Below are positions 18,043 to 30,596 of a DNA stretch of 34,735 nucleotides, one piece after another. A program made the position numbers and the translations under genes. How positions within the stretch are numbered: position 1 is the first letter of the stretch; each line of letters begins with the position of its first letter. Source of the stretch: Ignavibacteriota bacterium (lineage in GTDB: Bacteria > Bacteroidota > Ignavibacteria > UBA10030); NCBI GenBank assembly GCA_003142575.1, contig PLMS01000144.1, forward strand, positions 1-34,735. Direction: 5' to 3'. The notes under the pieces were generated by a model, which had not been told where the DNA came from, ran no database searches, and saw only the letters and a program-made list of their open reading frames with translations.

Positions 18043-19326
18043 TTACTTTTTAAGCTCATCAATAGAATTTTGCAACAAAGCCAAGACATATTTATAGTTA
18101 TGCATTCCGTGGCTCTTTTCATATTGGACTTGTTGAAGGTTCCACAATGCACCAGCTTTGAAAGCTGGAGTGATAACCAATGGCTTTGTGGTCGATGCAT
18201 TGGCTGCCCAAGAGGAATCGCCTATAACCGTGCTCGTAGTAACCGTCACCCAAGGAACTGCTTTGCCGCTTTGCGGCAATGACCATTTTTGTGTGATAGT
18301 CGTATCCATCATCAATTTGCCCAACTCAGCAATCTTTGCAATGATTGTTGCACGCTTACCCCAATGTGCAGCGTCGGGTGCGGTCGCTGAGGCTACAACA
18401 GGGTTTGAACTATGACAACCAGAAACATTGCAGCCATTTACATTATATGATGGACTTGTTGAGCCGGAAGCAAGATAGCGCACCCAGAATGTATGTCCGC
18501 CGTTTTGATTACTGCTATTCACCGTCGCCATGTGGCAATCCTCGCAACCCAACGCTTTGTTGTTTATCAAAGTGGTATGATATGAGCTTTGATAATTTGA
18601 ATAGCCTGTGAATTCAAATCCACCAGTACCAAGTAAGGTTTGCGTTGGCTCGCCTGAAACGTGGTTATTCCATCGTGATGTGTAGATCTTTGCCGTATCG
18701 GTTGTATTCGTCTTTGATGGATCCGGTTGCCATGACGCTGGGGTCGTTCCAGATGCCCACATGAATGTTGATGTCATACGCGGTTGGTGGCACTTCACGC
18801 ACAAGTTGGACGCATTACTGCTATTCCATTGTTGTGTTGTTCGTCCTGCAATAAGCGTAAAAATATTCACTGCACTTGAATCGCGCACTGTAAAATTAGC
18901 GCGACTATGCGGTGAATGGCACGTAAAACAACCGGGAGGCGAAGCATTAGGATAGCCCTGGTTACAAATTGGTCCGGAGGGAGCAGTTAGATTGAATGTT
19001 TCATTTCCAAAACCTCTGCTATAGCGTTCCAAGAAACCTTCATTTGTATGACAACCAGCACAATCATACGAATTGTGGGAAAAATCGCCGCCATCAAAGT
19101 GACCGGAGGCTTCATATTGAACTTCTTTAGCGAGCACACGATATGTCGTATCCAGATCTGGATTGTGGCAGGTCGCGCATTTAATACCAGGTGCAAAACC
19201 CTCTAGAGCGCTTTCTGAAGCATCTTTCCCCTCAGGACCTGTACGACCTTCGCATCCTGTCATAGCCGTAATTATAAAGAGACCTATCCCAAAGATAGTA
19301 AAGCTACAAAATATTTTTTTCATCAT
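18043..19326 (-). CDS. Multiheme c-type cytochrome lipoprotein (6 motifs: 5 CX2CH + 1 CX4CH)
   Basis: Lipobox ITAMTGC; CATCH, CAGCH, CFTCH, CVKCH, CEDCH, CNVSGCH. Confidence 0.85.
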   Translation of the reverse strand: MMKKIFCSFTIFGIGLFIITAMTGCEGRTGPEGKDASESALEGFAPGIKCATCHNPDLDTTYRVLAKEVQYEASGHFDGGDFSHNSYDCAGCHTNEGFLERYSRGFGNETFNLTAPSGPICNQGYPNASPPGCFTCHSPHSRANFTVRDSSAVNIFTLIAGRTTQQWNSSNASNLCVKCHQPRMTSTFMWASGTTPASWQPDPSKTNTTDTAKIYTSRWNNHVSGEPTQTLLGTGGFEFTGYSNYQSSYHTTLINNKALGCEDCHMATVNSSNQNGGHTFWVRYLASGSTSPSYNVNGCNVSGCHSSNPVVASATAPDAAHWGKRATIIAKIAELGKLMMDTTITQKWSLPQSGKAVPWVTVTTSTVIGDSSWAANASTTKPLVITPAFKAGALWNLQQVQYEKSHGMHNYKYVLALLQNSIDELKK

Positions 19327-19425
19327 AAAAAAACACCTTTAGACTAAAAGTTGATAATTAATTTTAGGAATTTCTTTGTTTTGGGATTTTCACTCCATCC
19401 ATATTCATAAATTCATATGGTTTCA

Positions 19426-28284: not shown

Positions 28285-28322
28285 GCAAGAATTCTCTAGC
28301 CTCAATCGAAATCATACCTATG

Positions 28323-30596
28323 TTATATGGACTTTCCCTCTGATGTGTTCGCTGCATCTTCTTCTTCATCAACAATCACGGATATCATTTTCCCATCTTC
28401 TTCCAATGCTTTGCGCTTTAAGGTAGCGAGCTCCTTTGTGTGTTCTTCTGCCATTTCCGATTCTGTTAATGAACCTTTGAGCCAAGCAAGATTTATTGGA
28501 TAAATATCCGGACTAAAGATGACAAAATACATATGCCAGATAAGAATAGCAAGGAAGGCCAACCATGCTTCATAGAAATGTACGGAACGAGCGACATCCC
28601 ACCCAAGCTTTGTCAATAATCCCATAAATGTATTATCAAACCAAAGAATTACACCGGTTACACTCATTACCACAGTACCCCATACCAGAGCCCAATATTC
28701 ACTCTTCTCGATGTAACTGAACCTGTCAAATTGTGGTTTGATCGGTGAAAAGCCAAGATTGTACTTAAGTACATCAATCGCATCGTTAATATCATTCCTA
28801 GTCGGTAACAAATCTCGAATCAATTGTTTCCCGCGCGGAACAAAGAAGATATAATAAAGATGGTACAAACTTGCCGTTACCATCACTGCTGCGGCAATCC
28901 GATGTACGATACCGCGCATATCGAAAACATTTGTATTTAAATTTCTAATTGCAACAACCCAAAATGCCTCTGGATACCGAAGCATAAAGCCGGTAAAAAC
29001 AAGCGTAAAGAAACTGAGCAAGAGTGAAATATGCTGAATGCGTTCATTCAAAGTCATTCGTACATATAATGTATGTCCATAATGTTCCTCGTGTACTAAT
29101 CCACGCCTGATCATTAACCTTCGTTTTGATTTTCGATAGAAGTCGAGCAGGTTATGTAATACCATCCCGCCGATGATCGATGCGATAAGAAGAACGTAAA
29201 GGAATGACACCCAATAGAGTACAGGTTCTTCACTTTTGTTTGTATTCGAGGAATGAATGGAACCTATAGTAAATCGTTCATTCGCTCCGGGGTGACATTT
29301 ACCGCAGGTTGTGGCAAGGTTGTGTTTGTGAACCAAAGAACTGGAATCGCTGGACGGTTTGATGTTATGCACTCCATGGCAACTTGCACAATTTGCAACT
29401 TCTGTACTCCCGGAACTCGTTGCAAGTCCATGGAAACTGGATGAAAATGTTTTAAACCGATCCCCGGCAAGTCCATATTTTTCCGTTAAGGTGACAGAAC
29501 TGTGACATGGCGCGCAAACCCGAGCGGACACATTGCGCGCAGAAACAGGAGAATTCGGATTTGATGGCGAAAGAATATTATGTTCACCATGGCAATCCGT
29601 ACACACGGGTGCTTCTTTGTTGCCCTTGCTCGATGCGGTTCCATGAATACTCTCGCGATACTCGTGTGCTATAGAAGCATGACATGTACCGCATGTCTCC
29701 GGAATGCGCTCACGATTTACGCGCGACGTTGACTCATTTCCCTTTTTGATTTCATGGCTGCCATGACAGTCGATGCAGTTGGCAACGGCGGCGTTTCCTT
29801 TCAACAGTGCAGAGCCATGGACACTCTTTTCGTAGGCTGCAATAAAACCTGCCGTCGGTGAAACTTGCGCACGTACATTGGGATCATCCAGATGGCATGA
29901 GAGACAAAGCTTTTCCTGCGTAAGTTTCACTTTTGCAGAATCGGAACTGCCTTTTAATCCTGTAATCTGACTTCGATGACATGACATGCAAACAGGCGCA
30001 CCAGTAACTCCGGCGCTCGACGCCTTGCCATGCGCCGAAAGGAGATAATGTCGCGCTTGTTGTTCATGACAGGTCGCGCAGATATCAACCGATTCGGTCG
30101 AGATCATTCCCGTTGTTCTTATTTTCGTACGCTGAATATTATGCGTGCCATGACATTGTTTGCATGAAGCAACAAGTTCCGGAGCGCTTGTTTTTGATTT
30201 CAATATCGGGCTGTGAATGAGATGTTTGACGGCGGCATCTTTGTGACAGTTTAAACAATTGACCGGATCAATTTTTTCTTTGTGCGGAACATTGCCGGCA
30301 TCGAAACCAACATGGCAGGCGATGCATACAAGTTTTGTATGAGGTGATTTTTTTAATGCTGCGTAATTGGCAAACAGGGAAATTGTTTTTCCCTTTTTCT
30401 CCATGGTCAGCGTACTATCTGAATGACATGCAAGACAATCATCCACGGTCTGCGCTGAAACGATCCATGGGAGTAACACGCTTACTACTATGATGATTAA
30501 GAAATGAATATTTTGGGAATGCTTAGGTTTCTGTATCGATTTTTTTTCCAATGGTAATAACCTGAATTCTTTCTCTACAAACATGATTATGGACAA
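28323..30596 (-). CDS. Fusion of 13-heme c-type cytochrome and membrane diheme cytochrome b domain (CbcL-like)
   Basis: N-terminal signal/TM; 13 CXXCH (CLACH, CIACH, CLNCH, CKQCH, CATCH, CMSCH, CLSCH, CIDCH, CGTCH, CTDCH, CAPCH, CASCH, CGKCH); C-terminal multi-TM with formate dehydrogenase-gamma/HydC-like LRYPEAFW...GIVHRIAAAVMVTASLYHLYYIFF...SVHFYEAWLAFLAILIWHMYFVIF. The exact start could be 30584. Confidence 0.88.
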   Translation of the reverse strand: MSIIMFVEKEFRLLPLEKKSIQKPKHSQNIHFLIIIVVSVLLPWIVSAQTVDDCLACHSDSTLTMEKKGKTISLFANYAALKKSPHTKLVCIACHVGFDAGNVPHKEKIDPVNCLNCHKDAAVKHLIHSPILKSKTSAPELVASCKQCHGTHNIQRTKIRTTGMISTESVDICATCHEQQARHYLLSAHGKASSAGVTGAPVCMSCHRSQITGLKGSSDSAKVKLTQEKLCLSCHLDDPNVRAQVSPTAGFIAAYEKSVHGSALLKGNAAVANCIDCHGSHEIKKGNESTSRVNRERIPETCGTCHASIAHEYRESIHGTASSKGNKEAPVCTDCHGEHNILSPSNPNSPVSARNVSARVCAPCHSSVTLTEKYGLAGDRFKTFSSSFHGLATSSGSTEVANCASCHGVHNIKPSSDSSSLVHKHNLATTCGKCHPGANERFTIGSIHSSNTNKSEEPVLYWVSFLYVLLIASIIGGMVLHNLLDFYRKSKRRLMIRRGLVHEEHYGHTLYVRMTLNERIQHISLLLSFFTLVFTGFMLRYPEAFWVVAIRNLNTNVFDMRGIVHRIAAAVMVTASLYHLYYIFFVPRGKQLIRDLLPTRNDINDAIDVLKYNLGFSPIKPQFDRFSYIEKSEYWALVWGTVVMSVTGVILWFDNTFMGLLTKLGWDVARSVHFYEAWLAFLAILIWHMYFVIFSPDIYPINLAWLKGSLTESEMAEEHTKELATLKRKALEEDGKMISVIVDEEEDAANTSEGKSI

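Follow-up and report, generated by a model that had tools for sequence, protein, structure and literature searches.

A compact multiheme cytochrome locus with a probable role in extracellular electron transfer in an Ignavibacteriota genome

Ten consecutive minus-strand genes on contig PLMS01000144.1 of an uncultured Ignavibacteriota bacterium (assembly GCA_003142575.1) encode, within 12.5 kb, seven of the eight multiheme cytochromes of the genome. The window, that is the whole stretch of 34,735 nucleotides analysed, forms the first part of an 85-kb contig in a metagenome-assembled genome (MAG) of 3.28 Mb, 152 contigs, and 98.9% completeness; the genes, lettered A to J in order of transcription, lie at 18043-30596. 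Judged from sequence, the locus appears, with a probability of roughly 0.8, to serve dissimilatory extracellular electron transfer (EET), from menaquinol to acceptors outside the cell.

In this route, menaquinol would give up its electrons at the inner membrane to any one of three enzymes working in parallel (A, B, or the C-D-E complex), and these electrons would pass to the tetraheme cytochrome F, and to periplasmic multiheme domains, before reaching the 14-heme cytochrome H held in the 22-strand barrel G. From H they would be delivered to the outward-facing lipoprotein cytochromes I (7-heme) and J (6-heme), which could pass them on to Fe(III)/Mn(IV) minerals, humics, or partner cells. We infer the direction of electron flow, the sequence in which the proteins make contact, the surface exposure, and the final acceptor.

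Components of the locus

Genes A to J contain 13, 7, 0, 0, 11, 4, 0, 14, 7, and 6 CX2-4CH motifs, respectively, with a total of 62, namely 59 CXXCH, one CX3CH (CGTVCH, gene B), and two CX4CH (CSNTFCH and CNVSGCH). Translation and motif counting thus confirm the ten genes and 62 motifs that an earlier reading, made from the sequence alone, had listed, and domains of the cytochrome c7, c3, c554, and NapC-NirT types are found in all the motif-bearing genes; the profile searches that the sequence-only reading had proposed were run against Pfam and NCBIfam and gave matches for all but the barrel gene. A genome-wide census of six-frame open reading frames (ORFs) with at least four CX2-4CH motifs recovered one other multiheme protein, an octaheme cytochrome at C76:10425-11999 on another contig; since 62 of the 70 motifs of multiheme proteins fall in 0.4% of the genome, the clustering is not due to chance.

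Three quinol oxidases, which are alternatives and not successive steps, are encoded by A, by B, and by C-D-E; they are parallel entries. A (28323-30596) is a CbcL-type enzyme in which a signal peptide and 13 CXXCH motifs precede a b-type cytochrome domain, matched by PF01292 (prokaryotic cytochrome b561; residues 514-695, E 6e-15) and, as a formate dehydrogenase gamma-like region, by TIGR01583, with conserved histidines in 15 homologs. The CbcL/MtoC/MtrH proteins are defined by an N-terminal multiheme part and a C-terminal HydC/FdnI-like b-type cytochrome with about six transmembrane (TM) segments; A has both parts, and a crude hydropathy scan counts some five TM peaks after the signal peptide. 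B (26791-28305, probably starting at an ATG at about 28284) is an ImcH-type quinol oxidase matched by PF03264 (NapC/NirT, E 5e-14), and its three TM segments, the single CX3CH adjoining the third of them (CGTVCH, residue 137), and the six CXXCH motifs that follow agree with the published ImcH architecture of about 500 aa (PMC6295460).

The third entry is a complex of the bc/b6f type. C (26321-26776) is a Rieske iron-sulfur protein (PF00355, E 3e-12) with an N-terminal TM anchor, whose ligands C93, H95, C111, and H114 are invariant in 32 homologs, while D (25251-26324) is its cytochrome b (PF00033, E 3e-49; PF00032), with matches to cytochrome b6 in the PDB (E 3e-61), exactly four conserved histidines in 30 homologs (91, 105, 192, and 207) for the b hemes, and the Qo motif PEWY at 279. 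The adjoining gene E (23791-25254), conserved in 33 relatives, encodes an 11-heme cytochrome (11 CXXCH) with a signal peptide and a C-terminal TM anchor at 461-479, presumed to be the cytochrome c partner of the complex. The ORF of E opens at 25485 and overlaps D; translation probably begins at the ATG at 25254, which leaves a 4-bp overlap with the stop of D.

The remaining genes correspond to a porin-cytochrome (Pcc) conduit, which combines an outer-membrane barrel of about 18-22 strands, an adjacent periplasmic multiheme cytochrome of 5-14 hemes, and a lipoprotein cytochrome in the same cluster. F (23005-23520) is a periplasmic tetraheme cytochrome with a signal peptide, four CXXCH motifs, and a PF13435 match (E 3e-13), resembling a c554-like shuttle. 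G (21570-22880) is recognised as the barrel from its AF2 model (pLDDT 83.5, 22 TM strands), from the Foldseek matches of the model to outer-membrane barrels such as ushers, AlgE, and OprD-type porins, and from its linkage to the 14-heme gene; it has no Pfam or NCBIfam match, and its profile gives only chance matches against PDB sequences. H (20308-21561), beside the barrel, is the 14-heme conduit cytochrome (14 CXXCH; PF14522/PF14537/PF02085), with PDB profile matches to c7-like cytochromes. I (19426-20292) is a 7-heme lipoprotein cytochrome (lipobox ...IFISC-SDLKDD; TIGR01904, GSu CxxxxCH/CxxCH) whose lipobox recurs in relatives and which is probably surface-exposed; J (18043-19326) is a 6-heme lipoprotein cytochrome (lipobox ...AMTGC) with a marginal match to the MtrC/MtrF-like domain PF22113, probably located in the outer membrane, where the lipoboxes of both proteins would place them. 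The idea that J forms an OmcS-type filament finds no sequence match to J in the PDB.

Linkage and gene order among relatives

In 52 relatives, in which 10-20 kb were read around the barrel gene, a gene for an 11-14-heme cytochrome follows the barrel gene directly in every case, and an I-type lipoprotein gene comes next in 50, the other two being cut by contig ends; J is accessory, being found in 21 of the 52. A co-absence panel of 24 genomes was also surveyed, including as barrel-positive controls the query genome (G000) and G004, of the same genus; the 14-heme gene is present in both controls, and the 22 genomes without a convincing barrel contain no 14-heme homolog, only short and weak cytochrome matches. 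Several of these 22 retain ImcH-type and bc-type genes. Linkage and co-absence together therefore indicate that the barrel and the 14-heme cytochrome are one unit, to which the quinol oxidases are exchangeable attachments.

The cassette of tetraheme cytochrome, barrel, 14-heme cytochrome, and lipoprotein is the class-wide conserved part of the locus. The named relatives of G are Ignavibacteriae/Ignavibacteria MAGs, which places the organism in that class, and in a phylum-wide sample the barrel was found in 30 genomes of the class Ignavibacteria and in one of another class (G230, locus L133); in this last genome the barrel match is weak (E 6e-11), yet a 4-heme, barrel, 12-heme, 11-heme arrangement is retained.

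The sequence-only reading had also claimed that the gene order follows the path of the electrons from the inner membrane to the surface. The component identities and the quinol-to-outside route that it suggested are supported by domains, ligands, the barrel model, linkage, and co-absence (PMC4245776, PMC6295460), the route itself being the part that is deduced; the order is not supported as an imprint of that path, an idea rejected after the gene-neighbourhood comparison it had called for, made in 52 relatives, among which the modules are found shuffled or inverted. Within the locus, A, B, and C-D-E are parallel entries, and H comes after G although it is expected inside or inward of the barrel. 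Among the relatives, F stands ahead of the quinol oxidases (e.g., in L076 and L080) and before B in several families, I and J are swapped in some, and the conduit module comes first in L083 (G-H-J-I-F-A-B-C-D). The conduit lies directly behind nuoL-nuoM-nuoN of complex I in L049 and L050 and, as far as gene sizes tell, in L084, L086, and L088, whereas a Qrc/ACIII-like block (a molybdopterin-like subunit, an NrfD-like protein, and a 5-heme cytochrome) is inserted between E and F in L037 (10830-15870) and L071; in G004 the genes are just B-F-G-H-I-J, and cytochrome b has no match. Many relatives, among them L032, L033, L039, L040, and L047, carry between A and B an additional CbcL-like pair, split into a 19-heme cytochrome and a separate b-type cytochrome, which has no counterpart in the window.

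With gaps of 270 bp between E and F and of 124 bp between F and G, the ten genes may form one transcript or more, and a promoter scan at the locus gave no excess over shuffled sequences. Directly past J, a strong terminator-like hairpin lies at 17976-18004 on the minus strand (12-bp stem with seven G-C pairs, T-rich tail), and beyond it, on the same strand, a gene for a CcmF-type cytochrome c heme lyase (15621-17909; PF01578 and PF16327); the conduit genes are followed downstream by ccmF in 28 of the 52 relatives. On the plus strand, a heme-biosynthesis run at 6289-14720 includes genes that are hemA-, hemC-, hemD-, hemE-, hemH-, and hemG-like by sequence, with HemC confirmed by PF01379, and is accompanied by a membrane protein resembling those of cytochrome c assembly; genes for making heme, for attaching it, and for the proteins that carry it are thus neighbours in the window.

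Electron sinks and alternative explanations

EET is likely because most competing electron sinks are absent from the genome. The sole COX1-family ORF, C11:43847-46069 (740 aa), is read from its sequence as a quinol-type nitric oxide reductase, so that no cytochrome c oxidase is found, and cytochrome bd, which is present, takes electrons straight from quinol. The genome encodes no molybdo-reductases, since its sole PF00384 match is NuoG; the NosZ and NirK models have no match, and NrfA is missing from the motif census, which would have revealed one. With these sinks absent, three quinol:cytochrome c oxidoreductases are left with essentially one outlet, the conduit. Further points in favour of EET are the match of the cassette to the published pcc cluster of Ignavibacterium album and its occurrence in Melioribacter roseus, whose genome has F-G-H-I with a 14-heme H and which reportedly uses Fe(III), arsenate, and nitrite. 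A 358-aa protein at C120:12570-13646 (minus strand) combines a single CXXCH, placed right behind the signal peptide, with a beta-barrel-like remainder and has no Pfam match; it resembles a fused monoheme-porin of the Cyc2-like kind and may offer electrons a second way across the outer membrane.

Several points weigh against assigning the locus to EET. The AF2 model of H is unusable (pLDDT 43), so that its seat inside the barrel is presumptive. The inner-membrane module is not tied to the conduit, because L111, L112, L113, and L116 contain the whole inner-membrane block with a different downstream partner and without conduit. The octaheme cytochrome of contig C76 is an alternative sink, and the absences, in a MAG that is 98.9% complete, are strong and not absolute. 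Finally, M. roseus also reduces nitrite and arsenate and has other terminal reductases, so that its use of Fe(III) is not assigned to the cassette.

Among the other explanations, the one that survives best, although improbable, is electron uptake, in which the conduit would run inward, oxidising Fe(II) or drawing electrons from a partner, with reduction of the quinone. CbcL/MtoC-type proteins occur in Fe(III) reducers and Fe(II) oxidisers alike and these pathways are reversible, but ImcH has so far been implicated in quinol oxidation only (PMC6295460); moreover, the genome has no heme-copper oxidase to drain the electrons and no match to the RuBisCO model, the one marker of CO2 fixation that was searched for.

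Still less probable is that the quinol oxidases deliver electrons to a soluble acceptor in the periplasm (tetrathionate, nitrite, or hydroxylamine) through the octaheme protein, a cytochrome of the tetrathionate-reductase family (TIGR04315), while the barrel is a nearby transport porin. The presence of this protein in the genome, together with the relatives that have the inner-membrane module without a barrel, is what such a chain would lead one to expect; its gene is, however, unlinked to the locus and adjoins that of its own candidate membrane cytochrome b, the barrel and the 14-heme cytochrome are linked in 52 of 52 relatives and otherwise co-absent, and the lipoprotein cytochromes would be left without a role. 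The octaheme gene and its cytochrome b neighbour lie with two YeeE/YedE-like transporters and a MerR-like regulator at C76:8059-12503 (minus strand), a separate sulfur/nitrogen-oxide unit.

An ordinary aerobic chain, with Rieske/cytochrome b feeding a cytochrome c oxidase beside unrelated multiheme genes, would suit the heme-copper oxidases that most relatives carry (a COX1-family match in 92 of 101 genomes), but is very improbable here, where the only COX1 relative is NOR-like (nitric oxide reductase-like) and G004, with neither a COX1 nor a cytochrome b match, still retains ImcH followed by the 4-heme, barrel, 14-heme, 7-heme, and 6-heme genes.

If the locus does serve EET, what most deserves attention is its Rieske-type bc complex, the main outlet of which is apparently extracellular. 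In Geobacter sulfurreducens ImcH, CbcL, and CbcBA serve different acceptor potentials (PMC12307469), and A, B, and C-D-E may, by analogy, likewise be graded by potential. It is tentatively proposed, at a little under even odds, that the locus is a self-contained EET unit, its single conduit supplied by three quinol oxidases at different redox potentials, and that a Rieske-type, Q-cycle bc complex, with its only significant outlet outside the cell, conserves energy from mineral or electrode respiration; a genome with seven of its eight multiheme proteins in such a locus would then approach the smallest complete set for metal respiration. The variation among relatives (ImcH alone in G004; CbcL-type enzymes, the bc complex, or nuoLMN neighbours elsewhere) would be a natural experiment on which quinol oxidase is needed at which acceptor potential, and on whether EET can be sustained energetically by a true Q-cycle complex. 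If the route works as proposed, this lineage would manage EET with a much shorter list of parts than Geobacter, namely a single cluster in a genome of about eight multiheme proteins; such a set would be tractable for heterologous reconstruction, and the cassette, whose barrel is absent from Pfam and NCBIfam, would be a specific marker of likely EET capacity in uncultured Ignavibacteria.

Comparison with known systems

Pcc clusters are known in M. roseus and Ignavibacterium album (PMC7399161). That of I. album consists of a periplasmic cytochrome (IALB_1840), a porin (IALB_1839), a 400-aa 14-heme periplasmic cytochrome (IALB_1838), and an outer-membrane cytochrome with an atypical motif (IALB_1837), and Pcc porins are predicted at 18-22 strands (PMC4245776); compared by this published description, F-G-H-I has the same content and order, with H likewise a 14-heme protein of about 400 aa. 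The I. album cluster is described without quinol oxidases, whereas here the cassette is joined by the three quinol oxidase modules (CbcL-type, ImcH-type, and bc) and by a second lipoprotein, which has six hemes. At the M. roseus locus (L124:12939-14963) two response regulators stand among the multiheme genes and maybe exert redox-responsive control, one of them having a GcvH-like domain, an odd domain pairing; an NrfCD identity for these genes beside the cassette was rejected.

The extABCD and extEFG clusters of G. sulfurreducens can be likened by description, since they encode a barrel of 18-21 predicted strands, a periplasmic 12-heme cytochrome, and lipoprotein cytochromes (PMC6148476); 12 hemes are also found in the conduit cytochrome of some relatives here, while the ext clusters are described without the quinol oxidases that this locus has. 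MtrCAB combines an MtrB-type porin with 28 predicted strands and the decaheme MtrA (PMC4245776), and a conduit of this type is rejected on account of the 22-strand barrel with a 14-heme partner and of the lack of an MtrB-like Pfam or NCBIfam match to G.

Concerning the quinol oxidases, ImcH and B share a length of about 500 aa, three N-terminal TM segments, a CX3CH near the membrane, and six CXXCH motifs, but in the published survey imcH has no mtrAB or mtoAB neighbours (PMC6295460), whereas B shares its cluster with a porin-cytochrome conduit. A shares with the CbcL/MtoC/MtrH family, which ranges from 3 to 23 hemes, the N-terminal multiheme part and the C-terminal b-type cytochrome (PMC6295460); in this comparison of architecture, Geobacter CbcL has 9 hemes and A has 13. 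Proteins of the ImcH and CbcL families have already been published for Ignavibacteriae, and in Rhodoferax ferrireducens cymA, mtrH, and mtrABC form one cluster (PMC6295460). The latter shares with this locus the union of inner-membrane quinol oxidases and an outer-membrane conduit, and differs in its MtrCAB-type conduit with a larger porin, in CymA in place of ImcH, and in that a bc complex is unmentioned.

The completeness of the route within a single locus, which the sequence-only reading had put forward as its candidate novelty, is thus weak as a novelty, as many relatives share the arrangement, the conduit is published for I. album and reported for M. roseus, and R. ferrireducens is a precedent. 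In the open-access literature no cluster was found described that unites all four modules (CbcL-type, ImcH-type, Rieske-bc, and Pcc); the single-locus arrangement is a lineage-typical consolidation of known modules rather than a new mechanism.

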